DNA from: Chloroflexota bacterium
Lineage (GTDB): Bacteria > Chloroflexota > Dormibacteria > Dormibacterales > Dormibacteraceae
Reading direction: 5' to 3'
NCBI GenBank assembly: GCA_005887685.1
Contig: VBHJ01000005.1
Span: forward strand, 1 to 60,292
DNA: 60,292 bases
Positions 5,570 through 59,901 of this stretch are shown piece by piece. Position numbers and translations under genes: made by a program. How positions within the stretch are numbered: position 1 is the first letter of the stretch; the number at the start of each line of letters is the position of its first letter. The notes under the pieces were generated by a model. It was not told the origin of the DNA. It saw only the letters and a list, made by a program, of their open reading frames with translations, and did no database searches.

Positions 5570-5642
5570 GGGCCCTCAATTGTTACGACAAGCGGCGGCC
5601 GGCGTTCTGTCATTCAAATTCGCGCCCAGGAGGCCGGGTCAC

Positions 5643-6548: not shown

Positions 6549-6554
6549 TAAGTC

Positions 6555-6586: not shown

Positions 6587-6604
6587 CAGTAACCTGCACC
6601 GGTA

Positions 6605-7084: not shown

Positions 7085-7091
7085 GCGCGCC

Positions 7092-7619: not shown

Positions 7620-8266
7620 ACGGCAAGCGCGAGAACAGGATCGACAAGATCGTCTCCGACCTATTGCGGGGTCGCCGCCTGAAGCTGCGCGGCGGCGATG
7701 CGGAGGAAAAGGCCGCCATCACGGCCGCGGCGCGACTCGCCGCTGCGCGCCAAGGCTCCCAGCGCATGCACCCGGCTTTTCGCAAGAGGCTCGCCACGCT
7801 GCTGGAGCAGGCGCCGAAGAAGGACCGCGTGACCCGGCGCGCCGCGCTGGTCGCCGGTCTTGGCCTCGCGGCAGGCGTCGCGGCAGGGACGTTGCTCGGC
7901 CGAGCCACGCAGCCGGGCGTCATGCCGGTGGCGGGCGCCGCGATCGATCCCGTCGATGGTCGCTGGATCGACGTCGCCGCGATGAGCGACCTCGCGGAGG
8001 GCCAGGGCAAGCGCGTCAAGGCGGGTGGCATTGGGGCGTTCGTGTTCCGGCGCGGCCAGTCGGTGACGGCGGTCTCATCCATCTGCTCCCACCTGCCGTG
8101 CGAGCTGTGGTGGGACGGAAGCAACAGCCACCTCGCGTGCCCGTGTCATCCAGCGTCGTTCCGCCCGGACGGCAAGCCGACCGACGGCTATGCCCTTCCC
8201 GCTCTGAACGCGGTCCAGGTGCGCGTCACCGCCGAAGGACGCATCGAGGTGCTGGGGACCGAATGA
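7616..8266 (+). CDS. membrane-anchored Rieske [2Fe-2S] protein, possible redox-sensing anti-sigma
   Basis: 216 residues. The first ~75 residues are charged and helical and look cytoplasmic, much like the N-terminal part of small anti-sigma factors. One transmembrane helix follows (RRAALVAGLGLAAGVAAGTL). The outer part is a Rieske domain with CSHLPC and CPCHPASF supplying the Cys/His cluster ligands and the disulfide cysteines. The reading frame begins inside the sigma gene's stop (ATGA), so expression is coupled. Known Rieske proteins serve bc1/b6f complexes or dioxygenases; no such genes are nearby. A role in sensing redox for the sigma factor is inference. Confidence 0.8.
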   Translation: MNGKRENRIDKIVSDLLRGRRLKLRGGDAEEKAAITAAARLAAARQGSQRMHPAFRKRLATLLEQAPKKDRVTRRAALVAGLGLAAGVAAGTLLGRATQPGVMPVAGAAIDPVDGRWIDVAAMSDLAEGQGKRVKAGGIGAFVFRRGQSVTAVSSICSHLPCELWWDGSNSHLACPCHPASFRPDGKPTDGYALPALNAVQVRVTAEGRIEVLGTE

Positions 8267-8526
8267 ACGTCCGGGCGCACAGGTCGAGGCAGATTGCCCT
8301 GGACCGGTGTCTTCAGCTTCTCGAGGAGGCGCAGGTCCGCGGGCGGGTCCGCATCGACGGGCCGCTTGGCGCGTCGCTGCGACGTCATCTCGAGCGGGCC
8401 GGGGTCATCGCCGACCACCGGTTGGAGGGCCGGCGCATCGACCGGGTGCTCGACGACATCTTCGCGCTGCAGGCGCAATTGCTCGGGCAGGACCCGGAGG
8501 ACAGCCGGCACCACAACGGGTCTTAG
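8263..8526 (+). CDS. small hypothetical protein
   Basis: 87 residues, with ATG start in an ATGA overlap with the Rieske gene, which supports it as a real gene of the same operon. It is basic, predicted helical (RQIALDRCLQLLEEAQ; LRRHLERAGVIADH; IDRVLDDIFALQAQLL) and has no membrane segment or metal motif. I do not recognise a family. Its place suggests an accessory to the sigma/Rieske pair. Confidence 0.6.
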   Translation: MNVRAHRSRQIALDRCLQLLEEAQVRGRVRIDGPLGASLRRHLERAGVIADHRLEGRRIDRVLDDIFALQAQLLGQDPEDSRHHNGS

Positions 8527-8528
8527 TC

Positions 8529-8566
8529 GCCCCTCCGCCCGCACCTTCCCCCTGGATGGGGAGGAC
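8529..8566 (+). repeat. dispersed double-hairpin element, copy upstream of metK
   Basis: CCCCTCCG, a short spacer, then a hairpin with arms CTTCCCC (545-551 of the 8 kb block, i.e. 8545-8551) and GGGGAGG (8558-8564) around a TGGA loop. It matches the right half of the element seen at 20945, 46886, 46979 and 51461. It lies in the short gap between the small ORF and metK; the AGGA at its end is 18 nt from the metK GTG. Confidence 0.55.
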
Positions 8567-8582
8567 ACTATGATCTGCCTTT

Positions 8583-9809
8583 GTGACAACAAGCTTCAGC
8601 TCATCGCGCTCGTTTCTGCTCACCTCCGAATCGGTCACCGAGGGGCATCCTGACAAGGTCTGCGACCAGGTCTCGGATGCGGTCCTCGACGGGATGCTGT
8701 CGCAGGACGCTCACGCCCGGGTCGCGTGCGAAACCGCGATCACAAAGGGACTTTGCGTCGTGATCGGCGAGGTGACCACGCATGCGGACCTCGACATCCA
8801 GCGCACGATCCGCGACACGATCCGCGCGATCGGTTACAACGACGAGCAGATCGGATTCGACGCCGACCACGCGCTGATCCAGGTCTATCTGAAAGAGCAG
8901 TCGCCGGACATCGCCGCCGGAGTGAATCACTCGCTCGAGGAGCGCGAAGGCTCGTTGGAAGACGACCCGTTCGAGCTGCAGGGAGCGGGGGACCAGGGCA
9001 TGATGATCGGCTTCGCCTGCCGCGAAACGCCGGAGCTGATGCCGCTCACGATCTCGCTCGCCAACCGGCTGGCGAAGAAGCTGGCCGAGACGCGAAAGGA
9101 CGGGTCGCTTCCGTTCCTGCGGCCCGACGGCAAGACGCAGGTGACCGTCGAGTACGAGCTCGGACGGCCAAAACGCATCGAGGCGATCGTCGTCTCGACC
9201 CATCACGCGGCGAGCGCCACGCAGAAAGAGATCGCCGAGGGCGTCCGCGAGCTCGTGATCAATCCGGTGCTGAAGGGCCAGGTGGTCGACGCCGCGACGA
9301 AGATCATGGTCAACCCGAGCGGTCATTTCGTCCTCGGCGGCCCCGCCGCTGACGCCGGCCTGACAGGACGCAAGATCATCGTCGACACGTACGGCGGCGT
9401 GGCACGACACGGCGGCGGCGCTTTCAGCGGCAAGGACCCGAGCAAGGTCGACCGGTCCGCGGCCTACGCGGCGCGCCATGTGGCGAAGAACCTCGTCGCG
9501 GCGGGTCTGGTGGATCGCTGCGAGGTCCAGGTCTCGTATGCGATCGGTCGCGCGCACCCGACCTCGATTGCGGTCGAGACGTTCGGCACGGGCACGAAGT
9601 CCGAAGACGAGCTGCTCGCGCTGGTCCGCCGCCATTTCGACCTGCGGCCTGGCGCGATCATCGCGAACATGAACCTCCTGCGCCCGATCTACCGCCAGAC
9701 CGCCACCTACGGGCACTTTGGTCGCGATGACCTCGGAGTGCCTTGGGAGGCCACCAACAAAGTCGAGGCGCTGCGCGCGGACGCAGCCGTCGTAGTGCGT
9801 CCGAGCTAG
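8583..9809 (+). CDS. metK: S-adenosylmethionine synthetase
   Basis: 408 residues, GTG start. It makes S-adenosylmethionine from methionine and ATP. Family signatures are present: [22 protein letters not shown] at the N-terminus (methionine and Mg/ATP site), [12 protein letters not shown], the P-loop-like [20 protein letters not shown], and the C-terminal [13 protein letters not shown] / ISYAIG-like region ([10 protein letters not shown]). Length is normal. No SAM riboswitch is recognisable in the 56 nt before it. It lies downstream of the Rieske operon and just before an MshC/CysS-type ligase gene. Confidence 0.97.
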
Positions 9810-9837
9810 AACGAAACCTTTTCGCGTCCGCGACACG

Positions 9838-10992
9838 CTGACCGAGCGGAAGGTTCGCTTTGATCCGGTCCGCAAGCCGTTCACGCTGTATGTGTGCGGC
9901 ATCACGCCCTATGACTCGGGACACATGGGTCACGCGTTCACGTTTTCGATCTTCGACGTGCTGGTGCGATTCCTCGAAGCCGGCGGCGTGCGCGTCAAGT
10001 ACGTCCAGAACGTCACCGATATAGACGACCCGTTATTCGAGCGCGCGCGCCGTGATGGCATCGACTGGCGGGAGCTGGCGGACCGCGAGACGCAGGTGCA
10101 CATCCGCGACATGACCGTGCTCGGCTGGCGGCGGCCGGACGTGATGCCCCGGGTTTCCGGCGAGATCAAGCGGATCGTGTCCGCGGCGTCGAAGCTGCAT
10201 TCATCGGGCTTCGCCTATCGTTCCGACGCGCTTTACTTCGACGCCAGCAAATATCGCGGCTACGGCCGCCTGTCACACCGGACGCGGCGCTCGATGCTGC
10301 GCAAGCTCCGCGACGAAGGGTTGCTCGGCAAGGTCGGCCCGGATGCGAAGCGCGATGCGCTCGACTTCCCGCTCTGGCGCCCTTCCGCCCCGGAAGAGCC
10401 GGCGTGGCCCTCGAAGTTCGGAGAGGGCCGCCCGGGATGGCATATCGAGTGCTCGGTGATGGCCATGCACTACCTCGGCGAACAGATCGACATCCACGGC
10501 GGCGGGCGGGACCTGCAGTTCAGCCATCACGAGTCGGAGCGCGCGCAGTCGGAGTCGTTGACCGGCAAGAAGCCCTTTGCTCGCGCATGGATGCACACCG
10601 GGATGGTCCGATACGAGGGCCGCAAGATGAGCAAATCGCTCGGCAACCTCGTCAAGGTCAGCCAGGCGCTGCAGCGCGCGCCGGCGGCCGCGGTGAGGCT
10701 CTACCTCGTCTCGCACAGATACGGCCGCGACTGGGACTTCGGCTGGCAGGGACTTGCGCGCTCGGCAAGGTTGGTCGAGCAGATGCGTAAATTCCTCGCC
10801 GACGACGAACGTGCGGGTAAGCGCAAGACGCCGCCCGGTCGGGCGCTGATGGATGAGTTCAACGCGGCGCTGGCCGACGACCTCGACACGCCTCGAGCCG
10901 TCCGGGCGATGCGGGCCGCGTTGCGTCAGCGCGACGCGGCAGCGCTGCGGGGGATGAAAGAAATCCTGATGGGTTCCGCCGCCCTCAGCTGA
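9838..10992 (+). CDS. MshC-like cysteine ligase (cysteinyl-tRNA synthetase paralogue)
   Basis: Class I synthetase fold with TLYVCGITPYDSGHMGHA (HIGH-type motif and zinc Cys), YVQNVTDIDDPLFERARRDG, WHIECSVMAM (zinc ligands), IDIHGGGRDLQFSHHE and KMSKS in RKMSKSLGNLV. These stretches, especially CGITPYD and DIDDPLFERA, look closer to mycothiol ligase MshC (Cys + GlcN-Ins) than to CysS, and the anticodon-binding C-terminus is short. There is no ATG, GTG or TTG that gives a complete N-terminus: GTG 9892 starts at the zinc Cys and loses the first strand. CTG 9838 is used here as the likeliest start; the frame is open back to 9796. Confidence 0.72.
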   Translation: MTERKVRFDPVRKPFTLYVCGITPYDSGHMGHAFTFSIFDVLVRFLEAGGVRVKYVQNVTDIDDPLFERARRDGIDWRELADRETQVHIRDMTVLGWRRPDVMPRVSGEIKRIVSAASKLHSSGFAYRSDALYFDASKYRGYGRLSHRTRRSMLRKLRDEGLLGKVGPDAKRDALDFPLWRPSAPEEPAWPSKFGEGRPGWHIECSVMAMHYLGEQIDIHGGGRDLQFSHHESERAQSESLTGKKPFARAWMHTGMVRYEGRKMSKSLGNLVKVSQALQRAPAAAVRLYLVSHRYGRDWDFGWQGLARSARLVEQMRKFLADDERAGKRKTPPGRALMDEFNAALADDLDTPRAVRAMRAALRQRDAAALRGMKEILMGSAALS

Positions 10993-46618: not shown

Positions 46619-47065
46619 ATGACAGTGTCCAAAACGATCGATCTCGAACTCACCCGGGCCGAAGTTGAGGTCCTGGAGCTGGAAGCCCGGCTCCGGGTGG
46701 TGCCCATGAACGACACCCAGCTTTCCGACGCCCTGAAGACCGCCCTGGCGGCCAAGAAGGAGCGCCTGGCGAAGCTTCGGACCCTCCACGCCACCGCCGG
46801 CCGAGCCAGCCGCAAGGAAGAAGGTGAACCCGCTGCACGCCGGCCGCCGGCCGCCCCTGAAGCGGACCGTGCCCCAAAGGCCGCAGACGAAAGGCGGCAA
46901 GTAAGGGTTCTCGGCAGCCCCTCCGGCGCTTCGCGCCACCTCCCCATGAATGGGGAGGAACGGGGTGAAGCAGCGGCTGACGAAAGGCGGCAAGTAAGGG
47001 TTCTCGGCAGCCCCTCCGGCGCTTCGCGCCACCTCCCCATGAATGGGGAGGAGACTTTTCGGTGA
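46619..47065 (+). CDS. small coiled-coil protein with a C-terminus built from two repeat units
   Basis: 148 residues, ATG with AGAAGAGG upstream. Residues ~1-60 are helical (TIDLELTRAEVEVLELEARL; LKTALAAKKERLAKLRTL). Residues ~88-148 are two in-frame copies of the dispersed double-hairpin element, each reading ERRQVRVLGSPSGASRHLPM. The repeat period is 93 bp (31 codons). This makes the C-terminus recent in origin; the native gene may have ended earlier. It overlaps the region before the GGDEF/EAL gene. Confidence 0.55.
   Translation: MTVSKTIDLELTRAEVEVLELEARLRVVPMNDTQLSDALKTALAAKKERLAKLRTLHATAGRASRKEEGEPAARRPPAAPEADRAPKAADERRQVRVLGSPSGASRHLPMNGEERGEAAADERRQVRVLGSPSGASRHLPMNGEETFR
46886..47052 (+). 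repeat. dispersed double-hairpin element, two tandem copies
   Basis: Two identical 74-nt stretches (46886-46959 and 46979-47052) at a 93-bp period. Each holds the left hairpin GGCGC-TTC-GCGCC (first copy 46925-46937) and the right hairpin CCTCCCCA-TGAA-TGGGGAGG (46939-46958). The element is preceded by GGCAAGTAAGGG, also found at the 51.46 kb copy. Confidence 0.9.
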
Positions 47066-47120
47066 ACTCCAATTCCCGGCCCGACCGTTATCTTTCTGCG
47101 GGTTGGCAAAAGAGCTGAGC

Positions 47121-50100
47121 GTGTCCACGGCGCCCGCTGCCGATCCTTTGTTTGGGGCGGCGTGGGCTGCGATCGGGCTGGCGCGGCCAACCCGGCCGTG
47201 GACCCTCCCCGTGGTCAACGGGGTCGCCGTCGCCGCGATCATCGGCGCGGTCGCCTACCGAATCTGGGAGGCCCGTCCTCCGGCCGAGGTGCTGCGCGAA
47301 GAGGCGATTCTCATCGGCATCGGCGTGGTGTTTGCCGCGGTCGCGGTGTGGCTAAAGGCCTCGCCGCGGGGCTCGAGCCTGCTCCTCCAGCTCCCGGTCA
47401 TGGCCACCGCGACCGTGCTGACCGTCCTGGTCATGGGGACGGCCGGCCGATGGCTGGGCGACGATCTCCCTCCGCTGGCAGCCGTCAGCTTCGCGACGAT
47501 ATTTCTGCACTTCGAGGTCGGCCTGCACTCGCGCCAGTTCGGCTACGTCTTCGGCATCGCGATCCTCGGCCTGGGCGTGCTCTGGGTCTACGCGGTCAGC
47601 CAGCTGATGGTTTCGCTGAGCACCGTCGTGGTCTGGACCCTCGTGCTGATCGGGCTGGGCATCCTCGCCATGCTCACCAGCCGCGCGGTGGAACGCGACC
47701 TCGGCGTGCAGGTCGAGCGACAGAGCTCGCTGCTCGCAACCCTCAGTGACCTCGGCGAAGGCCTGCTGATCACCGAGAACGGCCGTTTCGTGGTCGGCAA
47801 CGACGCCTACGTCAACCTCACCGGCTACACCCGCGACCAGCTGGCCGCCATGCCGTCGCTGATCGAGCTGGCGCCACCTGAGGATCGCGAACGGCTTTCG
47901 ACGAATCTCACCAAAAGACTTGCCGGGGGCGATGTGCCCGCTCGGTACATCTCGGCCATCATCAACAAATCCGGGTCGCGTGTTGAGGTGGAGGTCGCGA
48001 TCCATCGCGTGACGACCAGGCGCAACCAGCTTCTGACCCTGGTGAGCGACATCAGCGAGCGAAAGCGCGCCGAAACAGCGGAGCGCGAGACGGAGACCCG
48101 CTTTCGGATTCTTTTCGAGCAGGCACAGGCGGGCATGGCGTTCACGAGCCTCGACGGGCACATCACGACGGTGAACCCGGCGTTCTGCGATCTCGTCGGT
48201 TACAGCGAGGCCGAGCTTCGCACCCTCTCCCTTCTCGACATCACGCACCCCGACGACGTCGGTGCACTACGGGAGGCGATGCACTCGATGCTGGCGGGCG
48301 AAGAAGAAGGTCGCCGCATCGAGAAGCGGTACACACGCAAGAACGGCGAGCACGTGTGGGTCGACCTCACGATGCGCCTGGTCCGAAGCACTGACGACAA
48401 GCCGCTGTACTTCCAGACGGTCGCCGTCGACATCAGGGATCGCAAGCGCGCGGAGGTGCTGCAAGCCGCGCGGTTCGCGGTCACGCAGGCGCTGGTGACT
48501 TCGCCCGGTTGGGAAAAGGCGGCGCCAGGGGTGCTCGAAGGCCTGTGCCGAACGCTCGATTGGGAGCTTGCCGAGTACTGGGAAGTCGACGTCAACCGCG
48601 AGGCGATGCATTTCGTCACGTCTTGGAAGAGGCCGGGCCGCGATACCACCTCATACGAAGCCAGCGCATCGCAAGTGACCTACCGCCGCGGTGAGGGGTT
48701 GGCGGGACGCGTCTGGGAAGCGGGCGCGCCGGTCGCGATGCCCGACCTCGCGGGCGACACCTCGGTGCGGTCAGGCGCGGCGGTCGCGGTCGGACTGCAC
48801 GGCATCGTCGGGTTTCCCGTCCGCAGCGGCCGCCGCGTGGTCGGCATGATCTCCCTCCACACCTGGGCGGCGCGAGACCTCGACGACGGCCTCGTCGCGG
48901 TGATGAACGACGTCGGCTCGCAGACCGGAGAGTTCGTCGAGCGGAAACGGGCGGAAGTCGCGCTGCAGGACAGCGAGAAGCGGATGCGCTCGGTGCTCGA
49001 CAACGTTTCCGACGGACTCGCCACCATCGACCCGGGCGGAATCATCGAGTCGGCCAACCCGGCGGTGACGAAATTGTTCGGCTATACGGAAGAGGAGCTC
49101 ACCGGCCAGCAATCCGACGTGCTCATCGCGACGACTCACCGCAGCGCATTTGACAACTACCTCCAGAGGCGGCTGAACCTCGACATCCCTGTAAGCGGCG
49201 CCCACGAGACGATGGGCAAGCGCAAGAACGGCAGCCTGTTTCCGCTCGAGTTCGTCGTCAGCTCGATGCAGGTCGGTCCACGCCACCTGTTCATCGCGAC
49301 CCTGCGCGACATCTCGGAACGCAAGGCGCACACGGACGCGCTCGAGTACCAGGCGCTTCACGACGCGCTGACCGGGTTGCCCAACCGAAGCCTGTTCGGC
49401 GACCGGCTGCGCCAGGCGCTGCTCGCCGCCCGCCGCAATCAGAAGATGTTCGGCGTGCTGCTGCTCGACCTGGATCGGTTCAAGGACATCAACGACGCAT
49501 TGGGACACGACCGCGGCGACAGCCTGCTCCAGGAGGTGACGGCCCGGCTGCGCGGCGTGCTGCGCGCGACGGACACGATCGCCCGGCTTGGTGGCGACGA
49601 GTTCGCGGTGCTCACGACCGACGCCAAGCATCCCGAGGACGTCATCGCTTCGGCGCGCAAGATCATAGCCTCGCTCGAAGGCCCCTTCGCCATCGCCGAC
49701 CAGATGGTCGAGACCGGCGCGTCGATCGGGATTGCGATGTACCCGGTGCACGGCGACGATCCCGGCACGCTGCTGCGCCGGGCCGATGTTGCGATGTACG
49801 TCGCCAAGCGCTCAGGCGGCGGCTACGCGATGTACCAGCCTGAGCAGGAGGCGCAGACGCTGCGCCGCTCAGGACTTGCGGGCGAGTTGCGCCGATCCAT
49901 CCCGCAGGGTGAGCTGGTCCTCCACTATCAACCGCAGGTCACGCTTGCGACCGGCGCCGTGCACACGGTCGAAGCGCTCGTCCGCTGGAACCATCCGCGC
50001 GATGGTCTAATGCCGCCGGACCGGTTCATACCGATGGCCGAGGAGACGGGAATCATCCATCCGCTGACCGCGTGGGTCATCGACTCGGCGCTCGAGCAGC

Positions 50101-50657
50101 TCTGCAAGTGGTTGAACGACGGGCTTGACGTGTCGGTGTCGCTGAACGTGTCCCCGCGCAACATCGAAGACCACTCGCTCGAGGAGATGGTCGCGCGGGC
50201 TCTGGGCAACTTTAAGGTCGAGCCAAATCGCCTGACGCTGGAGATCACCGAGGGCGTGGCGATGGCGGCCGCGGCGGCGAAGGCGCTGCACCGGCTGCAC
50301 GAGATCGGCGTGCGGCTGGCGCTCGACGACTTCGGTACCGGCTACTCGTCACTCCTTTATCTGATGCGGCTGCCGGTCAATGAGATCAAGATCGACCGCT
50401 CGTTCGTCTCGGCGCTGGCCACCGACCCCGACTCGGGCGCCATCGTGCGCTCGGCCGTCGGCCTCGGACACAACCTCGGCCTGCGGGTCGTGGCTGAGGG
50501 CCTGCAGGACCGGATGGCGGAAGCGGTGCTGGTCGAGGCGGGATGCGACGCGGCGCAGGGCTTCCTGGTCGGCCGGCCAGTCGAGGCAGGCGAGATCACG
50601 GCTCTCCTGACGGGTCAATCAGGCCTGGCCCCGCAGGCTGACCAAGCTTCGCTCTGA
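47121..50657 (+). CDS. membrane-anchored PAS-PAS-GAF-PAS-GGDEF-EAL c-di-GMP protein
   Basis: 1178 residues from GTG 47121. Several transmembrane helices fill the first ~190 residues. Then PAS at about 200-320 and 325-445, GAF at 450-610, PAS at 620-740, GGDEF at 745-905 and EAL at 920-1170. The GGDEF motif (ARLGGDEFAVL, about 824) and the I-site RATD five residues before it are intact. The EAL motif (VEALVRW), LEITEG, DDFGTGYSSL, IKIDRSFV and VVAEGLQ are also complete. It may both make and break c-di-GMP, with PAS/GAF sensing. Its TGA overlaps the CTG of the reductase frame. Confidence 0.93.
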   Translation: MSTAPAADPLFGAAWAAIGLARPTRPWTLPVVNGVAVAAIIGAVAYRIWEARPPAEVLREEAILIGIGVVFAAVAVWLKASPRGSSLLLQLPVMATATVLTVLVMGTAGRWLGDDLPPLAAVSFATIFLHFEVGLHSRQFGYVFGIAILGLGVLWVYAVSQLMVSLSTVVVWTLVLIGLGILAMLTSRAVERDLGVQVERQSSLLATLSDLGEGLLITENGRFVVGNDAYVNLTGYTRDQLAAMPSLIELAPPEDRERLSTNLTKRLAGGDVPARYISAIINKSGSRVEVEVAIHRVTTRRNQLLTLVSDISERKRAETAERETETRFRILFEQAQAGMAFTSLDGHITTVNPAFCDLVGYSEAELRTLSLLDITHPDDVGALREAMHSMLAGEEEGRRIEKRYTRKNGEHVWVDLTMRLVRSTDDKPLYFQTVAVDIRDRKRAEVLQAARFAVTQALVTSPGWEKAAPGVLEGLCRTLDWELAEYWEVDVNREAMHFVTSWKRPGRDTTSYEASASQVTYRRGEGLAGRVWEAGAPVAMPDLAGDTSVRSGAAVAVGLHGIVGFPVRSGRRVVGMISLHTWAARDLDDGLVAVMNDVGSQTGEFVERKRAEVALQDSEKRMRSVLDNVSDGLATIDPGGIIESANPAVTKLFGYTEEELTGQQSDVLIATTHRSAFDNYLQRRLNLDIPVSGAHETMGKRKNGSLFPLEFVVSSMQVGPRHLFIATLRDISERKAHTDALEYQALHDALTGLPNRSLFGDRLRQALLAARRNQKMFGVLLLDLDRFKDINDALGHDRGDSLLQEVTARLRGVLRATDTIARLGGDEFAVLTTDAKHPEDVIASARKIIASLEGPFAIADQMVETGASIGIAMYPVHGDDPGTLLRRADVAMYVAKRSGGGYAMYQPEQEAQTLRRSGLAGELRRSIPQGELVLHYQPQVTLATGAVHTVEALVRWNHPRDGLMPPDRFIPMAEETGIIHPLTAWVIDSALEQLCKWLNDGLDVSVSLNVSPRNIEDHSLEEMVARALGNFKVEPNRLTLEITEGVAMAAAAAKALHRLHEIGVRLALDDFGTGYSSLLYLMRLPVNEIKIDRSFVSALATDPDSGAIVRSAVGLGHNLGLRVVAEGLQDRMAEAVLVEAGCDAAQGFLVGRPVEAGEITALLTGQSGLAPQADQASL

Positions 50658-51466
50658 GAGCGCTCGTTTTCGGCGCCGGCGGACAGCTCGGTCTCGAGCT
50701 CGTCGAACTCCTTGGAGCCGAATCCGCAGTCCCGCATGACCGGCTTTCGATTGTCGACGGGGAAGCGGTTGAGGCGCTGATTGCGGACCGCAAGCCGGAC
50801 GTCGTCTTCAACTGCGCCGCGTACAACGCCGTGGATCGCGCCGAGCTGGAGCCCGCGCTTGCCCACGCGATCAACGCGGAAGGGCCGCGCCACGTCGCCG
50901 CCGCATGCAGGCGCCACGGTGCGATGCTCGTCCACTTTTCAACGAACTTTGTCTTCGACGGCAAGCACGAAGAGCCGTACGTAGAGGCCGACGAGCCGTC
51001 GCCCATCTCGGTCTACGGCCACTCCAAGCTCGAGGGCGAGCGGAGGGTGCTCGAGACCGGAGCGCACGTGCTGCTGGTCAGGACCGCGGCGGTCTTCGGC
51101 GGCCCACACAGCTTCCCCCAGCGCATCCTCGACCGGGCGCGGTCGGGCGAAAAGCTGCGGGTCGTGTCCGACCAGCGCGTCAACCCGACCTACGCCGAAG
51201 ACCTTGCGGCGGCGGCGCTTCAGCTCGTCGAGGAGGGCGCGGCAGGCATCGTTCATGTCGTCGCCAGGGAGTGCACCGGCTGGGACGACTTCGCCCGGGC
51301 CGCGCTGGAAGAGTTCGAGGTTGCGGCGCCGGTCGAGTCCGTGACGAGCGCGGCCTATCCGTCGGCGGCTCGGCGCCCCCTCAACGGCTGCCTGGGAACG
51401 ACCCGATTTCCACCGCTCCGGCCCTGGAGGGAGGCGCTTCACGAATGGGCCGCGGGTCTGAAGTAA
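50654..51466 (+). CDS. dTDP-4-dehydrorhamnose reductase-like protein, apparent CTG start
   Basis: 270 residues from CTG 50654. The Rossmann motif LVFGAGGQLGLELVELL lies just after this codon, matching the usual start of RfbD (MKILxFGxxGQLG). No ATG, GTG or TTG precedes it in frame (the frame is open only from 50642), and the first ATG/GTG (50831) would delete the nucleotide-binding site. The CTG lies in CTGA with the stop of the GGDEF/EAL gene. The family continues with NCAAYNAVDRAE, STNFVFDG and SVYGHSKLEGE (Tyr/Lys). It reduces a dTDP-4-keto sugar. The stop TAA belongs to a dispersed repeat. Confidence 0.85.
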   Translation: MRALVFGAGGQLGLELVELLGAESAVPHDRLSIVDGEAVEALIADRKPDVVFNCAAYNAVDRAELEPALAHAINAEGPRHVAAACRRHGAMLVHFSTNFVFDGKHEEPYVEADEPSPISVYGHSKLEGERRVLETGAHVLLVRTAAVFGGPHSFPQRILDRARSGEKLRVVSDQRVNPTYAEDLAAAALQLVEEGAAGIVHVVARECTGWDDFARAALEEFEVAAPVESVTSAAYPSAARRPLNGCLGTTRFPPLRPWREALHEWAAGLK

Positions 51467-51850: not shown

Positions 51851-52207
51851 TTGCACAGATTGATCAGTTCGAAGGATGTGGCAGCTCGTCTCGGCGTGAG
51901 CCAGGCGACTGTCTTGCGTGCGGTGGCACGAGGACTCCTGCATCCCGCGCTCGTCACCCCAGGGGGACATCGCCGGTTCAGCGAACGGGACGTCATCGCT
52001 TTTGCCGCCGGCCTCCAGGACGAGCCTGCCGGCGCGCGACTCATCTCCACCGGTGAGGCCGCCAGGCTGCTCGGGGTCAGCCAGCCAACCCTCAACCGCG
52101 CGGTTCGGAACGGGCGCCTCCGTCCCACGCTGACGACGCCGGGCGGGCATCGGCGCTTCGACAGTGCCGAGCTCAGCGCGGCGCTCTACCTGGAGAGCAC
52201 CGCCTGA
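51851..52207 (+). CDS. regulator with two BldC/MerR-type HTH domains in one chain
   Basis: 118 residues from TTG 51851 (TTG 51860 is an alternative). Two very similar HTH_17-type domains: LISSKDVAARLGVSQATVLR...LVTPGGHRRFSERDV (about 4-50) and LISTGEAARLLGVSQPTLNR...TTPGGHRRFDSAEL (about 64-112). The TPGGHRRF wing is the hallmark of BldC-like proteins. No effector or recombinase-associated features are seen. It ends with a TGATG overlap with the GT2 gene, so it is the first gene of the exosortase operon and its likely regulator. Confidence 0.8.
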   Translation: MHRLISSKDVAARLGVSQATVLRAVARGLLHPALVTPGGHRRFSERDVIAFAAGLQDEPAGARLISTGEAARLLGVSQPTLNRAVRNGRLRPTLTTPGGHRRFDSAELSAALYLESTA

Positions 52208-54576
52208 TGGCGCAAGGAGAAGATCCCGGCAGGCTGATCGGGCCGCGCCCGGAGCGCGGCCACCTCGCCTGGAGCATCCTGCTCAACGGCGTCCTGGTTG
52301 GAGCCTTCGTCGTTGGCTTCATCCCGATCGTCGCCATCGTCCACGGATTCATCGACCTTGTGCAGCAGTCAAAGATCCGAAGTGGCTCCGACTGGGCCGC
52401 CTACGGCTTTGCCTTCACCGGGCTCCTCCTGGGCGCGATCTTCTTCGCCTATGCGATCAAGTACTACCTGAGCACTGTGATGGTGCTGCTGACCACGCTG
52501 GTCGGCGGCGGCCGGAATGGAAACGGAAACGGGTCCAAGGCGAACGGCAACGGGCTGAGCCGCATCAACGGAAACGGCAACGGCTATCACCTTGACCTCG
52601 GTTACCACCCCTTTGTCTCCGTGCATGTCGCCGCATACAACGAGAAGCGGGTCATCGAACGACTGCTGAACGCTCTGTCGCAGCTCGAGTATCCCGAGTA
52701 CGAGGTGGTCGTCGTCGACGATTCGACTGACGAGTCGGTCCAGATCCTGCAGCAGTGGGTCGGCCGTCCTCGTTTCAAGATCCTCCACCGGACAAGCCGC
52801 TCGGGATACAAGGGCGGTGCGCTGCGCGAGGCGCTCAAGGTCATGGATTCACGAACCGAGTACGTCGTCGTGTTCGACGCCGACTCGGTTCCGTTCCCCG
52901 ACTCGATCGAGCGTTTGATGCCGCTGTTCTACCGCGTCAGCGAAGGCACTTCGAGCAGGCGCTTCGAGGCGGCATTCGGACGAACCGATCCACCATCGGA
53001 GCCTGGACAGATCAAGCGCCGGCCCGAGGTCGCGGCGGTGCAGAGCTACCAGTGGCACGTGCTGAACAAGTCGGAGAGCTGGCTGACCGAAGCGGTGCGC
53101 GCCGAGTATGCCGGCAGCTACATGATCGAGCGTCCATTCCAGGACGCGGTCGGGTCGCTGAAGATGATCGCGGGCACGGCTTACATGATTCGCGCCGACG
53201 TCCTGCGCAACATCGGTTGGGGCACCAGCATCACCGAGGACTGGGAGCTGACACTCAAGCTCTACGCGCGCGGATACAAGGTGATCTACACGCCATGGGC
53301 TGAGACGCCTGCCGAATGCGTCAGCACCTTCGCGCGCCTTGCCCGTCAGCGGATGCGATGGGCGGAGGGGCACACGCACAACGTCCGCAAGTGGTTTCTT
53401 CCGATCCTGCGCTCGCCGCTGGTCACCCCGATCGAGAAGCTCGAGTTCCTCTACGACTCGACCTACTACCTGCAGGCTGGGTTGTTCGTGCTGGGCACGG
53501 TGAGCTGGGTCGTCTCTGAGGTCGTGTTCCGCACGCACGTGCCTGGATGGACCGCGCTTCTCGGGTGGTCGCTTCTCTTCTCGAACGTCTTCGCCCTTCC
53601 ACTCATGAACCTGGGCGGGCTCATCCTGGAGGAGGCGCCGGCGCGTGACGTGCAAGGCGTTTTCGGAGCGCTGGCCCTGTCCTTTGCCCTGGTGCCGTTC
53701 CAGGGATGGGCCGCCTTCAAGGGGCTGATCAGCAAGGACGAAGGGCCGTGGTTCCGAACGCCGAAAACGGGCCGCGTCACCGACGAGGTCCACCACCTCC
53801 GGCGTCTCCACCTGCTGGGCCGTTGGCTGCGCGGGCGCCGCCCGGCGAGCTCGCGGTGGACGCCGCCCGCCGCGCCGTTGGCGGCCACGCCGCTGCGCCG
53901 CATGCGTCCGCATCGACGCTGGCTGGCGCTGTTGTTCAGCGGCCTTGCGATCGCGTCCGTGCGGGCGCCCATCGTCAAGGCGGCCGGCAACCCGCTCTAC
54001 CTGCACGGAACTGGCACCGCACCGGCGTGTACCGCCGGCACTCTCGACCAGACCGTCGGCAGCAGGGCTCCGGCATGCGAGATCCAATCGGGCGCCGGCG
54101 TGACGACATGGTCGTTCAGCAACTTGCCGGCGCAGACGGTGGCCGCGGGCGTATGGAGCTTCAAGATGTACTGGACCGGTGGCACCGGCAACACCGCCGA
54201 CACGGTGAGCGTCGCGGTCGGCGCGTCGGCGACGTCGAGCTGCGCCGCGTTCGTGGCGCTGATCCCAAACGTAGGCTCGACGTGGTCCGCCACCTACGGA
54301 TCGAGCGGCGCCAACACGACCAGTCCCTTCACCTTCAACACCAGTGCCAGCCAGCTGCCGCTGGTGATCACACCGGGCGGGTCGCTGTGCGTCCAGGTGA
54401 CGCTCACGCACAGCACGGGCGGCAAGCCCTCACTTGTCTACGACGGCCCCGCCGGTTCCGGAGACACGAACCTGATCGCGCCGAGCATCATCGTCCCCGA
54501 ATCGCTGCTCGGCTTCCTTGGCTTCGCCGTGGTCATTCCGATCTTTGCGTCGCGCCTGATCAGGAGGCGTCGGTGA
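52207..54576 (+). CDS. membrane GT2 glycosyltransferase with ectodomain and exosortase-type sorting tail
   Basis: 789 residues. Two N-terminal helices, then an Asn/Gly linker (about 98-125). The GT2 domain shows VSVHVAAYNEKRVIERLL (137 on), VDDSTD (~170), FDADSVP (~223), TEDWELT (~344) and the processive QRMRWAEG (~381). Further helices follow, up to about 520. The basic segment before 574 precedes a hydrophobic helix (LALLFSGLAIASV) and a beta-rich, Ser/Thr/Gly-rich ectodomain. The last 27 residues are VPES, a hydrophobic helix and RLIRRRR, the three-part arrangement of PEP-CTERM-like signals. The GT half resembles cellulose synthase-like enzymes without PilZ. GTGA overlap with the exosortase gene. 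Confidence 0.82.
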   Translation: MAQGEDPGRLIGPRPERGHLAWSILLNGVLVGAFVVGFIPIVAIVHGFIDLVQQSKIRSGSDWAAYGFAFTGLLLGAIFFAYAIKYYLSTVMVLLTTLVGGGRNGNGNGSKANGNGLSRINGNGNGYHLDLGYHPFVSVHVAAYNEKRVIERLLNALSQLEYPEYEVVVVDDSTDESVQILQQWVGRPRFKILHRTSRSGYKGGALREALKVMDSRTEYVVVFDADSVPFPDSIERLMPLFYRVSEGTSSRRFEAAFGRTDPPSEPGQIKRRPEVAAVQSYQWHVLNKSESWLTEAVRAEYAGSYMIERPFQDAVGSLKMIAGTAYMIRADVLRNIGWGTSITEDWELTLKLYARGYKVIYTPWAETPAECVSTFARLARQRMRWAEGHTHNVRKWFLPILRSPLVTPIEKLEFLYDSTYYLQAGLFVLGTVSWVVSEVVFRTHVPGWTALLGWSLLFSNVFALPLMNLGGLILEEAPARDVQGVFGALALSFALVPFQGWAAFKGLISKDEGPWFRTPKTGRVTDEVHHLRRLHLLGRWLRGRRPASSRWTPPAAPLAATPLRRMRPHRRWLALLFSGLAIASVRAPIVKAAGNPLYLHGTGTAPACTAGTLDQTVGSRAPACEIQSGAGVTTWSFSNLPAQTVAAGVWSFKMYWTGGTGNTADTVSVAVGASATSSCAAFVALIPNVGSTWSATYGSSGANTTSPFTFNTSASQLPLVITPGGSLCVQVTLTHSTGGKPSLVYDGPAGSGDTNLIAPSIIVPESLLGFLGFAVVIPIFASRLIRRRR

Positions 54577-55157
54577 AAACGAACGACCGCGACAACATCA
54601 ACCTCACGCTCATTGCGCTCACGTGCGCGATGCTCATGGTGCTCCCGCTCGTCACGACCTTCGACGACCTGCTCACATCGTGGGCGATGCAGCTGGGCGC
54701 GAACAATCCGCTACAGGGCATCGTGCCCGCCGAATCGCGGATGGTCGTGAGCCTCCTTGGCCTGGTCGGAATTCACGCCGCCGCGTCGGGCAGCCATCTG
54801 GTCGTGTGGGACGCCTCCGGCTCGATGCACACGCTGTTCATCTCCTGGAACTGCATCGGTTGGCAGAGCCTCATCCTGTTCGGAGTCAGCCTGGTTTCCG
54901 GGCTGCGCGGAACGCAGTCGCTGGAGTCGCGCCTTCAGGTGATCTGCATCGGCGTCGCCGGCACCATGCTGCTCAACCTCGTCCGGGTGGCCGCCGTGGC
55001 GGCGATCGCAGCGACGGTGGGCGTAACGCCGGCGATCCTGTTTCACGACTATGGCGGCACGATTCTCTTCGTCGCCTTTCTATTCGCCTTTTGGGCTTTC
55101 GCGCAGCGCTGGATTCTCGATTCGCCGCCGTCGTCTCAGCAAGAGATGACCGCGTGA
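54573..55157 (+). CDS. exosortase/archaeosortase family protein
   Basis: 194 residues, GTG start in GTGA with the GT2 stop and GGAGG just upstream. Five or six hydrophobic helices. The family catalytic residues are in place: Cys94 in SWNCIGWQSL, Arg138 in LLNLVRVAA and His158 in LFHDYGGTI. Exosortases are membrane cysteine peptidases/transpeptidases that cleave proteins at a C-terminal sorting signal. The protein is shorter than EpsH-type exosortases (about 280 or more) and has no extra C-terminal domain. The nearest possible substrate is the upstream GT2 protein itself. Confidence 0.82.
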   Translation: MKTNDRDNINLTLIALTCAMLMVLPLVTTFDDLLTSWAMQLGANNPLQGIVPAESRMVVSLLGLVGIHAAASGSHLVVWDASGSMHTLFISWNCIGWQSLILFGVSLVSGLRGTQSLESRLQVICIGVAGTMLLNLVRVAAVAAIAATVGVTPAILFHDYGGTILFVAFLFAFWAFAQRWILDSPPSSQQEMTA

Positions 55158-57382
55158 ACCGCTGGCTCCGGCTTGCACTGCAGACGGCCTTCGGGCTGGC
55201 CCTGCTGTGGCTGTGGCTGCGCACGGTCTCCCTGCCCGAGATCCTGAGCCACGCGCGCGTTCACAACTGGTGGGCAGTCGCTGTGATGCTGCTGCTCGCC
55301 CTGGTGACGAGCACGATCCGCGCGAGGCGCTGGCTGATATTGCTGCGACCGCTGGCTCCTGTAGGGATGGTGCGCGCATTCGCGATGAACGCCGGCGCGA
55401 GCCTGCTCAACTATGTCCTTCCCATTCGATCGGGCGACGCCGCTCGCTACTGGTGGCTGTGGCGCCGTCATCGCGTGCCGTCGGGCTCGGCGCTGGCCAC
55501 GATCGTGATCGACAAGTCATGCGACCTCGCCGCGGTGGCGATCGTTCTCGGCGGGCTCGCGCTGGTCGCCTCGACCGGCGTCGTGAGCGCGCCGCGCGGC
55601 CTCTTCGGGGCGGCGGCCCTCGCCATCGTGCTGCTGGGCGGCGTGTTCGGCACCGCGATTCTCGGCCCGCGCATCGCCGGATCCGCCCGGTTCCGGCGGC
55701 GGCTCCCGCCTTCGGTCGCGGACGGCATGGCCGGCCAGGCCTTCGCCTTTCGTGCTGTGGCCAGGAGCGTGTGGACGCCGCCGGTCGTCGGGCGGCTCGC
55801 GGCCCTGACCGCGGTCGCTCTCGTGATCGACGCGTTCAACTTCAGCCTGCTGTTCTGGGCGCTCGGCGTCGAGGTGCCCACGCTGAAGGCGATGGCCGCC
55901 TACCCCGCGCTTCTGCTCGCCTTCGCCGTCCCCGCGGGACCCGGTTACGTCGGAAGCCTCGAGGTGGCGGGCTCGCTGGTGCTGGGCGGAGGCCTGGGCC
56001 TGGGCGCCTCGATCGCGGCGGGGGCGATCGTGCTCTACCACGCGATCACCGCCGGTTACTCGCTGGTGCTCGGCCTGCTGGGCCTTCTGCTCGTCGGCGG
56101 CAAGCGGCGCGCCAAGGCGGGAGGTCCTCGCCGGATCGCGGTGTTCCACTGCGGCTTCACGTACGCGGGTGGTGGCGAGCGCCTGGTGATCGAGGAGGTC
56201 CTTGGGCTTCGCCGCCGCGGCTATGAAGTCGAGTGCTACGCGCCGACCGTCGACGCCTCGCGCTGCTATCCCGACCTCATCGGAGAGGTGCGCGTCAAGA
56301 CGTTCCTTCCGCAGCTGCCGCGCTGGTTCCCGTTCCGCGAAGCGATCCAGATGGCGGCGACGGCGCTGGTAATGCCGCTGTACGCGTGGCGATTCAGGGG
56401 CGTGGATGCGATCGTCGGCTGCAACCAACCGAGCGCATGGATCGCGTGGTGGGCGGCGCGCCTCATGGATGTGCCCTACGTCGTCTACCTCAATCAGCCG
56501 AACCGCCTTGTCTATCCGCGGAACATCGACCGGCAGACCGGATGGATCTCCAACGCCGATTACCGGCTGCTCGCCGCGATCGTCGTGCGCGCCACGCGAT
56601 TTGTCGCGTGGGCGGACCGGCGCTCGATCCAGGAAGCAGACCTGCTCCTGGTCAACGGCAACTACATCGGCGACATCATCCGCAAGACGTACGCCAAAGA
56701 GGCGATTGATTGCCCGGCGGGATGCCACGTCGCAAGCTCCGGCTTCCCCCTGCCGGTCGATGCGCGTTTCAGTGGCGGCCTGACCATCAACGGTTATCCG
56801 ATCCGCCGCCCTTACGTTCTCCTCACCAACCGGCATTACCCGCAAAAACGATTCGACCTGGCGATCAGGGCGATGGCCGACGTACGCAAGAAGCATCCCC
56901 GAGCGCAGCTCGTGATCCCGGGACCGGCCACCTCGCACACCGCGTCGCTGAAGGCGCTGGTGGCCAAGGTCGGGATGGATGATGCAGTCCTTTTCCTCGG
57001 GCCGATCGCCGAAGACGAGCTGCAGTCGCTCTACGAAGGCGCCGCGGTGTACGTCTACCCCGCGCCCGAGGAGGATTTCGGCATGGGCGTGATCGAATCG
57101 ATGGCCAAGGGAGTGCCCGTGGTCGCATGGAACCAGGCCGGCCCGACCGTCACCGTCGCGCCCGGGACCGGGCACCTCGCCGAGCCGCTGGACGTGGCCG
57201 ATTACGCCGCCGGCATCACCAGGCTGCTCGACCAGCCGCTCGAAAACCAGGCGACCGGCGTGCGCGCGTTCGAGTGGGCGCGTCGGTTCGATTGGGAGAG
57301 GCACATCGACGTCCTCGAGAAGGCTGTGCTGGACGTCGCCCGCGCGCACGAGCAAGTGGCACTGGAAGCGGCGACGGCTTGA
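55154..57382 (+). CDS. fusion of LPG-synthase-TM (flippase-like) and GT4 glycosyltransferase
   Basis: 742 residues, GTG start in GTGA with the exosortase stop. The first ~315 residues are the lysylphosphatidylglycerol-synthase TM region (UPF0104/AglD-type): LNYVLPIRSGDAARYWWLWR, VIDKSCDLAAVAI, AFAVPAGPGYVGSLE. From ~327 a GT4 domain begins (IAVFHCGFTYAGGGERLVIEE), and ends in APEEDFGMGVIESMAKGVPVVA (about 637-660), the EX7E nucleotide-sugar site. The first part may move or bind a lipid-linked sugar, the second adds a sugar in the cytoplasm. The two are usually separate genes. Confidence 0.87.
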   Translation: MNRWLRLALQTAFGLALLWLWLRTVSLPEILSHARVHNWWAVAVMLLLALVTSTIRARRWLILLRPLAPVGMVRAFAMNAGASLLNYVLPIRSGDAARYWWLWRRHRVPSGSALATIVIDKSCDLAAVAIVLGGLALVASTGVVSAPRGLFGAAALAIVLLGGVFGTAILGPRIAGSARFRRRLPPSVADGMAGQAFAFRAVARSVWTPPVVGRLAALTAVALVIDAFNFSLLFWALGVEVPTLKAMAAYPALLLAFAVPAGPGYVGSLEVAGSLVLGGGLGLGASIAAGAIVLYHAITAGYSLVLGLLGLLLVGGKRRAKAGGPRRIAVFHCGFTYAGGGERLVIEEVLGLRRRGYEVECYAPTVDASRCYPDLIGEVRVKTFLPQLPRWFPFREAIQMAATALVMPLYAWRFRGVDAIVGCNQPSAWIAWWAARLMDVPYVVYLNQPNRLVYPRNIDRQTGWISNADYRLLAAIVVRATRFVAWADRRSIQEADLLLVNGNYIGDIIRKTYAKEAIDCPAGCHVASSGFPLPVDARFSGGLTINGYPIRRPYVLLTNRHYPQKRFDLAIRAMADVRKKHPRAQLVIPGPATSHTASLKALVAKVGMDDAVLFLGPIAEDELQSLYEGAAVYVYPAPEEDFGMGVIESMAKGVPVVAWNQAGPTVTVAPGTGHLAEPLDVADYAAGITRLLDQPLENQATGVRAFEWARRFDWERHIDVLEKAVLDVARAHEQVALEAATA

Positions 57383-59901
57383 GGTCAGCGCGAGCTCGGC
57401 TCGCAGTCCTCGACGGTTTGATCGTATCCGCTGCCGTCATCGGCGCGGGTTTCGCCTCCGGAGCGTTCGTCGGGACGGTGAAGGGCTATGACGGATGGGG
57501 CCACCTGACGAAGGTCGTGCTTGTCGTCGCGAAATTCCCGGCTATCGACTGGAACGCCGATTGGTACAACGGCTCGCCGTTCTTTCTCGGGGGATATCCG
57601 CCCCTCTTCTACCTTGCGGCGGCGGCGCTGAACGGGCTGGGGGTCGGCGCGATGTCCGCGATGAACGTGCTCATGGCCGTCAGCTATCTCGCGATGACGG
57701 TCAGCCTTTTCGGACTGGTCCGGGTCGCGACCGGCTCGAGACTGGGAGGCATGGTCGCGGCCGGCCTGGCCATGGCGACGCCGGCGTTCTGGACTCCCTA
57801 CGTCCAGGGCGGACTGTACACACGCGTATTCGGGATGGGCTTCGCGTCACTTGCGATCTTTCTCGCTCTCGTCTACTTGCGCCGACCCACCTGGGCTCGC
57901 TATGTCGCCTGTGTCGCCGCGACCCTCGGTGCGCTCAGCAGCCACATAGTCCTGGCCGCGCTCGCCGTGACCACGGTGGCGCTCGTCCTGATGTTCACGC
58001 CGGATGGCGAAGGGCGCATCCGCTGGCCAAGGGTCGCGTTGGTGGCCCCGATGGTGCTCCTCGCGGCCTACTACTACCTGCCGCTTGCCTTCTCCTTTCA
58101 ATCGGGCGCCCAGCAGACGGCGTCGTACCCTGCGCTCGACCTCGCCGGCCTGGCCCTGTCTCTCGTACCGGTCCTCCCGGCGACCGCGTTGCTCGTGCTG
58201 GCGCGGCTCCGGTCAAGGTCATCGCGAGCTGCGACGTCGGACAGGCTGATGGTGGTGCTAGGCGCTGTGTCAGCCCTGATGTTGCTCTACGCGCTGGCGC
58301 CTCTGCCGCGTGTGGCCGGGCTGCACAGCCCCGACATGCTGTTCTTCATCGTCTGGTTTGGCGCGGCGCTGGCCGGATTGGTCCTGGGCTCGATCAAGGT
58401 ACCCACCACAGCGTGGCAACGGCAAGGCTCCGCCATCGCTGCGGTCGCGGCGACCGCGATCCTGGTGGCGATGGGAGTGCCGGCGGTCGCCTCGTCGGCG
58501 GTGCGTAACCCCGCCGACCCCCAGAACATCACGGCGGGGTGGCACCCCGTCGACGCGCCCGACGGATCGTTTCGAGTCGCGAGCCCTTCCGACAATCTCT
58601 CGGCCTGGTTCAACGGCGTGTACGACGTTCCGCAGACCCGCGGCTACGCCGCCATCCCTCAGATGCTGAACCCGGACTTTCTGTACTGGCTGGACACGAC
58701 CGCCTGGAGCGCCGACGCGTCGGACGAGCAGCGGACGTTCCTCTTCGACTGGTACGCGGTGCGTTGGATCTACGTGCCGGCGCCGTACATGGCGTCGACG
58801 GCCGGGGTCCTGCCGCGCCTCCATGCCCGCCCGGATCTCTATGCGCCGGTGGGCCCTGGAAACGGCGGCACGACCCTGACCTTCGAGTACCTTCGCCCGA
58901 GTCCGATCGCGGCCGCCACCAACGCCCCGATAGTTCTTTTCATCGGCGACCCGTCCGACTATCGGCTCGTATTTCGCGACCTGTCCTACAGCGGCTTTGA
59001 CAGCGAGCACGCGGTGCTCGTCGACGGTGGACCGTATGTCGACGACCTCACGGCGCAAGAGCTGTCGCGATTTGACGAGGTCGTGATCTACGGCGGGCGA
59101 GCCCACGACCAAGCTCGCGCGCTCGACCTCCTCACCCGATACGTGACCTCTGGTGGCGGCATGGTGCTCGACAAGGGGGGTTTGTCGCTGCCCGTGACAG
59201 CGACCAGGGCGGTCCAGGTCAGCAATGACTGGCAGTTCCGCGCGGAGAGCTCGCCGATCACGGATGGAATCGACTTTTCCGCCTTCGGGCCGCCGAGCTA
59301 CAACGGCGGCCCATGGACCGTGTCGACTGCAACGGGCCTGAAGAGCTGGGTCCATCCGGTGCTTTGGTCGGGCAGCGATCCAGTCGTCGCCACCGGCCAG
59401 CTCGGGGCGGGCCGGGTTGTCTGGTCGGGTCTCAACCTCCCGTATCACGTCGACACTTTCCGCAACGCAGAGGAGTCGCGGTTCCTCACCTCGGCGATCG
59501 CGTGGGCCTCTCGCCACGGCTCCATGCCGGCCGCCGTATCGACTGCCCACCAGGCCGATCCCCAGCTGCTGGTCGTGTCGGTGCCTTCACCGGCGCGCGG
59601 GATCCTTTTCAAAGAGACCTACTTCGATCGCTGGCACGCATACGTCAACGGGGATGCGGCGACCATCTATCGGGCCGGCCCGGGATTCATGTACGTCATG
59701 CTGCCGCCGAGCACCGCATTTCCCGCCACGGTCACCTGGCGTTACGAGCGCTCGCTGGCGGACTGGTCGGGCATGGTCGTGTCAGGCGCGACGCTGATCG
59801 CGCTCATCGCCTGGCCGAGGTGGCAGGGGACGGTCCGCAGAAGGTTTGGCATCTGGTGGGACAGCCGGACCACGCGCTGGGCTGAGGACGAAACTAGTTG
59901 A
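57379..59901 (+). CDS. large polytopic membrane protein (6-pyruvoyl-tetrahydropterin synthase-related / GT-C-like)
   Basis: 840 residues; TTG start in TTGA with the GT4 stop. About ten to twelve helices in the first ~400 residues with GYDGWGHLTK, DWNADWYNGSPFFLGGYPPLFYL, typical of the PTPS_related membrane family and GT-C-like proteins (acidic residue in the first outer loop). The ~400-residue outer part is beta-rich, including a glutamine-amidotransferase-like VVIYGGRAHDQARALDLL...GGGMVLD stretch. One last helix follows before the cytoplasmic end. It probably acts in sugar transfer or polymer export on the outer side of the membrane. Confidence 0.7.
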   Translation: MRSARARLAVLDGLIVSAAVIGAGFASGAFVGTVKGYDGWGHLTKVVLVVAKFPAIDWNADWYNGSPFFLGGYPPLFYLAAAALNGLGVGAMSAMNVLMAVSYLAMTVSLFGLVRVATGSRLGGMVAAGLAMATPAFWTPYVQGGLYTRVFGMGFASLAIFLALVYLRRPTWARYVACVAATLGALSSHIVLAALAVTTVALVLMFTPDGEGRIRWPRVALVAPMVLLAAYYYLPLAFSFQSGAQQTASYPALDLAGLALSLVPVLPATALLVLARLRSRSSRAATSDRLMVVLGAVSALMLLYALAPLPRVAGLHSPDMLFFIVWFGAALAGLVLGSIKVPTTAWQRQGSAIAAVAATAILVAMGVPAVASSAVRNPADPQNITAGWHPVDAPDGSFRVASPSDNLSAWFNGVYDVPQTRGYAAIPQMLNPDFLYWLDTTAWSADASDEQRTFLFDWYAVRWIYVPAPYMASTAGVLPRLHARPDLYAPVGPGNGGTTLTFEYLRPSPIAAATNAPIVLFIGDPSDYRLVFRDLSYSGFDSEHAVLVDGGPYVDDLTAQELSRFDEVVIYGGRAHDQARALDLLTRYVTSGGGMVLDKGGLSLPVTATRAVQVSNDWQFRAESSPITDGIDFSAFGPPSYNGGPWTVSTATGLKSWVHPVLWSGSDPVVATGQLGAGRVVWSGLNLPYHVDTFRNAEESRFLTSAIAWASRHGSMPAAVSTAHQADPQLLVVSVPSPARGILFKETYFDRWHAYVNGDAATIYRAGPGFMYVMLPPSTAFPATVTWRYERSLADWSGMVVSGATLIALIAWPRWQGTVRRRFGIWWDSRTTRWAEDETS

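Follow-up and report, generated by a model that had tools for sequence, protein, structure and literature searches.

A family 2 glycosyltransferase with a predicted exosortase substrate as its C-terminal part, in bacteria and archaea

The acceptors of exosortases, and the presence of these enzymes in polysaccharide loci, are in general poorly resolved. PEP-CTERM/exosortase A (EpsH) systems serve many separate proteins; according to PMC12188702, Nostoc punctiforme, with its cyanoexosortase B, has 35 PEP-CTERM proteins, and proteins of this kind are believed to keep exopolysaccharide attached to the cell. The XrtG locus of Firmicutes is annotated in PMC12854382 as a Firmicu-CTERM protein, an exosortase, and two glycosyltransferases, each with its own gene. 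For archaea, PMC9263693 describes processing of the S-layer glycoprotein by ArtA followed by lipid attachment. Here, we describe a locus in a 60,292-nucleotide stretch of contig VBHJ01000005.1 from a Chloroflexota genome (GCA_005887685.1), hereafter the window, in which a short exosortase gene follows a family 2 glycosyltransferase (GT2) that ends in an ectodomain and a sorting-type tail. We consider it probable that these genes form a dedicated three-part surface module of GT2 synthase, exported sorting substrate, and exosortase, in which one reading frame encodes the synthase and, at its C-terminal end, the substrate.

A single open reading frame (ORF) of 789 residues (52207-54576, on the plus strand like all window features below) holds the GT2 part, a linker, a helix, the ectodomain, and the tail. 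Its end overlaps by GTGA the ORF of the exosortase, which has 194 residues and a GTG start (54573-55157). The GT2 part (52207-53772) runs from N-terminal hydrophobic segments through the GT2 domain to C-terminal hydrophobic segments and ends in RTPKTG (53755). It carries DDS (52717), DAD (52876), TED (53233), and QRMRW (53347), and so all of D, D, TED, and QxxRW, which we take to be the motif set of processive GT2 synthases. The same motifs occur in the processive GT2s PgaC/IcaA and BcsA, to whose plan the window's protein adds a predicted exported C-terminal domain and a sorting tail. Pfam places the protein in PF13641 (1.8e-26) and PF00535 (3.9e-22), the 18 solved-structure matches include chondroitin and cellulose synthases, and the best NCBIfam match, the poly-GlcNAc synthase PgaC, stays below its cut-off (88.7 versus 422.3 bits). 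The motifs thus point to a synthase of the processive type, with a polymer as the predicted product.

Beyond the synthase part lies a variable, Arg-rich linker (53773-53910), predicted to be cytoplasmic from the charge counts of 21 homologues, in which 8 to 13 Lys or Arg face 1 to 4 Asp or Glu when the helix is excluded. The signal-peptide-like helix that follows (53911-53982) ends in APIVKA and leads into the ectodomain. At this junction, between GT2 and ectodomain, the bacterial homologues conserve a signal-peptidase-like site, V-x-A followed by AGN: among 21 aligned sequences, 20 have Ala and one has Ser just ahead of AGN (or AN), at position -1; position -3 is Val in 19, Ala in one, and Ser in one, and position -2 varies. 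These counts come from the alignment alone, since an automatic helix pick often took β strands; the archaeal copies described below, read by eye, end their helices in AQA, TQA, VQA, or TEA. By general rule, we take VxA before Ala to be a signal peptidase I site.

The ectodomain itself (53983-54492) is a Ser/Thr/Gly-rich, all-β domain of about 170 residues that starts with AGNPLYLHG. Its AlphaFold model, with a predicted local distance difference test score (pLDDT) of 83, consists of strands throughout apart from the tail helix, and fold matching suggests a jelly-roll-like domain. Against the PDB, CocE-type esterases rank first (best TMq 0.62, E 2.9e-5), aligned over 231 columns on a chain of 571 residues; the match is presumably to their C-terminal jelly-roll domain. 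Carbohydrate-binding modules rank weakly among the fold matches, and binding of a glycan by the ectodomain is a guess. In Pfam and NCBIfam, no family reached its cut-off with the ectodomain. In one further locus (L091, 2-1555), the ectodomain profile matches as two halves that lie in a single frame but are separated by about 140 residues, which might reflect an insertion.

The tail, VPESLLGFLGFAVVIPIFASRLIRRRR (54493-54573), opens with VPES at residue 763 (base 54493) and continues with a hydrophobic helix and RRRR. Inspection of the alignment thus shows the PEP-CTERM-type layout of short motif, hydrophobic helix, and basic end, and the tail alone matched 0 NCBIfam families at E <= 1. Across the 22 ectodomain sequences of alignment A1, the P and E of the motif, one Gly, and a second Pro are invariant, and the neighboring tail residues vary. 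After the tail helix, 21 homologues have 4 to 8 Lys or Arg and no Asp or Glu, and their ectodomains hold 1 to 6 Lys or Arg. Given an Arg-rich linker and tail end on either side of a Lys/Arg-poor domain, the ectodomain should be outside the cell. ORFs, alignments, and ectodomain model together bear out the original prediction that one polypeptide joins GT2, signal-like helix, β ectodomain, and a VPES/helix/RRRR tail.

The short protein encoded downstream scores above the superfamily cut-offs of TIGR04178 (35 versus 23 bits) and PF09721 (27.2 versus 25.7). Its Cys94 (codon at 54852), Arg138 (54984), and His158 (55044) are invariant in 24 of 24 aligned exosortases, and equivalents are present in all 33 short exosortases chosen for a tree, archaeal ones included; the overlap, the exosortase assignment, and the triad hold as originally predicted. 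We conclude that it belongs to the exosortase/archaeosortase superfamily, with cleavage or transpeptidation of the tail as its predicted activity. For this protein and three relatives, every named subtype model at E <= 1 (XrtG, XrtX, ArtC, thaumarchaeosortase, and others) fell below its cut-off, the best matches of the window's protein being ArtC, XrtX, and thaumarchaeosortase. The archaeosortases ArtA (the partner of PGF-CTERM), ArtC, and thaumarchaeosortase share the superfamily, but the critical residues of ArtA are Cys/Arg/Arg (PMC9263693), in contrast to the conserved Cys/Arg/His here. What the sequences establish, then, is the fusion itself and its conservation, together with the Cys/Arg/His triad, the motifs of the GT2, the tail, and the conserved V-x-A site before Ala.

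Among described systems, the XrtG locus resembles this one in uniting an exosortase, a CTERM protein, and glycosyltransferases, with the difference that its genes are separate, whereas the window's predicted substrate is fused to the GT2. The window's proteins also fall far short of the XrtG models (exosortase TIGR03110, 19.9 versus 102.75 bits; GT2 TIGR03111, 31.4 versus 363.95). The original prediction had held that XrtG pairs with a GT2 but has no clear substrate, which the Firmicu-CTERM protein of the annotated XrtG locus (PMC12854382) contradicts. The GT2-substrate fusion is therefore a variant of a known three-part arrangement: exosortase, dedicated CTERM-type protein, and GT2 follow an XrtG-like logic, fused or in one case split, without belonging to XrtG. 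From the profile scores and the distribution given below, the module is an unnamed exosortase subtype with a predicted, dedicated substrate fused to a GT2, found in bacteria and archaea. Among literature titles and the openings of abstracts, we found no description of such a fusion, a search that leaves room for an earlier mention in Haft et al. 2012.

To see how constant the arrangement is, we turn to the 110 genomes of the window's class (Dormibacteria). A hand tally of 45 exosortase rows, two of them pieces of one gene in genome G065, gives 44 genes. Exosortase matches occur in 38 of the 110 genomes and ectodomain matches in 36; in G077 and G100, what remains of the exosortase matches over 78 and 43 positions and the ectodomain has no match, which looks like joint decay of the two. 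Directly upstream of 37 of the 44 exosortase genes lies one frame with GT2 sequence and ectodomain, a count that includes frame breaks within GT2 or exosortase (G079, G053, and contig C314 of G065) and a contig with room for only 24 exosortase residues (C243 of G081). Four more stand behind an ectodomain cut by a contig end (G073, C43 of G081, G109, and G070), one has no readable upstream sequence (C110 of G065), and two are fragments. Read from the synthase side, close GT2s (E <= 1e-100) are found in 35 of the 110 genomes, 34 of which also hold exosortase and ectodomain; in the 35th, G089, the contig ends just inside the ectodomain. We had considered G089 as a tail-less GT2 in a genome without exosortase, and rejected it because the contig stops within the start of the ectodomain; the second GT2 of G106 was set aside likewise. 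Every close GT2 of the class that can be read far enough carries the ectodomain or its start. The expectation that the tailed GT2 travels with this exosortase is thus upheld.

A separate contig search returned 23 loci. Wherever a bacterial one offers enough upstream DNA, a GT2-ectodomain-tail ORF abuts or overlaps the exosortase; in L004 and L020, only the end of the ectodomain is visible before the contig ends. The 4-bp overlap of the window recurs in 14 of the 23 (the row for L003 is read in the wrong frame). Across 400 genomes of the phylum, the ectodomain was found in 19 (E <= 1e-5), all of them among the 23 genomes with an exosortase match. G157 was left out, its match being a much longer, ordinary-looking exosortase. 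Six stretches of viral contigs fit a pattern, and none is a relative.

The window's own genome, G000, is a 3.05-Mb metagenome-assembled genome (MAG) of 264 contigs that is 94% complete. It holds two such exosortases, the second on contig C62 (54% identity), and this one also follows a GT2-ectodomain fusion, with the tail IPEFLLPFVGLAVIAP. At E <= 10, a search of G000 with the ectodomain profile gives no hits besides the two GT2 fusions. With the tail profile, these two score E 4.3e-20 and 5.0e-18, and the next hits, at 0.93 and 2.07, are partial matches. The only visible exosortase substrates in this MAG are therefore the two GT2 fusions, and the many other tailed proteins that would have made the GT2 unremarkable did not appear. 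PF09721 has one match in G000, the window's, and PF07589 has three, none above the cut-off. The latter sets the locus apart from EpsH/PEP-CTERM systems with their many separate substrates, with which it shares the tripartite tail, the exosortase superfamily, and an exopolysaccharide neighborhood (PMC1569441 and PMC12188702).

Relatives also occur in archaea, among them Ca. Terraquivivens (Nitrososphaerota; genome G455). In its phylum, 100 of 398 genomes match the exosortase, but strong matches over nearly the whole short protein (E < 1e-30) are confined to 9 genes in 8 genomes; the others are weaker and mostly lie in longer frames, like thaumarchaeosortases. In the tree, five such longer, thaumarchaeosortase-like proteins lie outside the clade formed by the short exosortases. 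In five genomes (G571, G464, G488, G601, and G656, the last with two exosortases), the short exosortase has as its neighbor a GT2 whose fused ectodomain ends in an IPE or VPE tail. In G455, these parts are spread over two frames, and a run of C lies close to the break; in G684, the exosortase lies at a contig end. In G514, three overlapping genes on L151 encode the exosortase (5623-6285), a tailed ectodomain protein with its own signal-like helix and IPE tail (6267-7097), and a GT2 without ectodomain (7073-9844). Parts that are fused in some genomes and separate but adjacent in G514 belong together, by the Rosetta-stone argument. Long branches, above all that of G514, mean that the order of fusion and splitting is not read from the tree.

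Two other observations concern these archaeal sequences. In one genome of the phylum (L150, 1938-3918), two different short exosortases stand in tandem behind one GT2-ectodomain gene, and two of the five thaumarchaeosortase-like proteins (L123 and L130) have Ser at the position of the expected catalytic Cys.

The spread of the junction bears on whether the fusion might be an artefact of assembly or frame that joins two genes. The genomes are MAGs, and frame breaks do occur in L003/G079, L088, L162, and L025; but the same junction recurs in many assemblies, in different species, and in archaea, so we reject this explanation as next to impossible.

The invariance and distribution of the tail likewise bear on a plainer reading, in which the tail does no more than anchor the C-terminus in the membrane. 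The ectodomain would then serve the synthase as an accessory domain outside the cytoplasm, and the exosortase would have a different target. A helix with an Arg-rich end would fit an ordinary anchor, and the PE is altered in two distant copies outside A1, where VPE is replaced by VDE (L090, the second copy of G091) and VPD (L111). Yet P and E never change in A1 while adjacent residues do, the genes overlap, exosortase and ectodomain occur together and apparently decay together, G000 yielded no further tail-bearing protein, and the separate ectodomain protein of G514 retains its IPE tail. We judge a plain anchor to be quite improbable.

In the three-part module that we favor, the chain would pass the last GT2 helix and the Arg-rich cytoplasmic linker, use an internal signal peptide to enter the membrane again, and export the ectodomain. 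Signal peptidase would then cut after VxA and free the ectodomain from the GT2. The exosortase would cut at or near VPE and hand the new C-terminus to an acceptor, either a lipid or a glycan or glycolipid made by the GT2 and neighboring enzymes, and the β domain would thereafter sit on the cell surface and help to keep the polymer there. Through the fusion, every synthase would come with one substrate, produced in the same place. Because the VxA site is conserved, the fused chain can be viewed as a predicted polyprotein that would yield a mature ectodomain equivalent in kind to the one from the split G514 genes.

That separation is the point of difference from action in cis as the original prediction had it, in which the ectodomain stays on the GT2 by an uncleaved signal anchor, and the exosortase shortens the tail and perhaps links the whole synthase to its own product or to a lipid, giving a self-anchored synthase. 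The fusion, present at 37 of 44 exosortase genes of the class and, in the archaeal phylum, in five genomes, has been kept for long, which suggests that joining matters. But the signal-peptidase-like site is conserved in 21 bacterial homologues, with AxA-type ends in archaeal copies by eye, and from this site the separation of GT2 and ectodomain is predicted; moreover, a split version exists in G514, G053 has an unfused, tailed ectodomain protein, and one exosortase of G218 follows a tailed protein whose visible part is without GT2. Action in cis as first worded is thus not supported, and we think it unlikely.

As to the acceptor, a lipid may be proposed by analogy with ArtA, and a glycan or glycolipid made by the GT2 would be the more daring choice. 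Only tentatively do we suggest that the acceptor is the glycan or glycolipid of the same synthase, so that every polymer would receive its protein cap or anchor from the synthase molecule that made it, in a protein-polysaccharide conjugation unit common to bacteria and archaea.

Several observations weigh against the three-part module. The search for tails in G000 used a short profile on a MAG that is 94% complete and is blind to unlike tails, and the VDE and VPD copies depart from the motif. The predicted topology rests on charges and hydrophobicity: the full-length AlphaFold model of the GT2-ectodomain protein is poor (pLDDT 49) and was not used, and the window's signal-like helix is 24 bp (8 residues) shorter than in three aligned relatives, leaving a hydrophobic stretch of about 14 residues. 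In L010 (1984-4281), an in-frame gap in the GT2, either a real deletion or an assembly error, removes the QRMRW segment. An ectodomain-like stretch of 38.9 bits lies in an 818-residue open frame without tail in G102 (L095, 4463-6919, minus strand, contig C56), with no GT2 or exosortase match in the surrounding 8 kb; this frame presumably encodes a Tad-pilus-type protein, judged by eye, and so the ectodomain fold family may extend beyond the module. Finally, exosortases of this type may also serve unfused substrates in two genomes. G053 encodes, beside GT2-fused ones, an unfused 287-residue ectodomain protein that combines an N-terminal C-x-x-C segment with a signal-like helix and the tail VPEL. 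G218, from another family of the phylum, has two exosortases, the first directly behind a receiver-MshEN-GT2-ectodomain protein with the tail VPDATLW and the second behind a protein of at least 1058 residues with the tail IVPER, whose visible part is without GT2.

Enzyme, substrate, and synthase can be assigned to one another one-to-one from sequence, are physically linked in two domains of life, and come with a natural split version as a control. Two or three genes would suffice to test how sorting and polymer synthesis are connected.

Some of the divergent copies have further peculiarities. The set of tailed ectodomain proteins is enlarged in G053, where fused and unfused members occur and some exceed the usual length (L087, 901-1764, and L088). 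The GT2 is fused to receiver and MshEN domains beside the same exosortase type at L111 (5227-8799, minus strand) and L112 (5665-8181, plus strand). The ectodomain of L090 was missed by local hidden Markov model runs and found by other profile searches, the tail of the ectodomain in G371 is cut by a contig end, and in G253, the GT2 lies downstream of the exosortase and the contig ends before any ectodomain.

The genes around the fusion were compared over the 23 contig loci, whose contigs are of unequal length. Upstream in the window are a PAS/GAF-GGDEF-EAL cyclic-di-GMP enzyme (47043-50657; counterpart in 12 of 23), rmlD, for dTDP-4-dehydrorhamnose reductase (50654-51466; 14 of 23), and a double HTH_17/BldC-like DNA-binding protein whose stop overlaps the GT2 start (51851-52207; match upstream in 14 of 23). 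Downstream, the exosortase stop is overlapped by a gene for a flippase-like (LPG_synthase_TM) domain joined to a GT4 glycosyltransferase (55154-57382; flippase match in 18 of 23), and an open frame for a large PTPS_related membrane protein (57127-59901; 4 of 23) probably has its true start near 57380, by eye. The diverged loci L021, L023, L024, and L025 show none of the GGDEF-EAL, rmlD, double HTH, and flippase neighbors. MshEN binds cyclic-di-GMP, and the MshEN-GT2 fusions of G218 and G253, together with the neighboring GGDEF-EAL gene, suggest control by this nucleotide. For rmlD, translation seems to begin at CTG, within a CTGA that also holds the TGA stop before it; starting at the first ATG, GTG, or TTG instead would drop about 60 residues. 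In L090 (3377-6094), an HTH_17 domain is in frame with the GT2-ectodomain protein, and the window's HTH gene is separate but overlapping.

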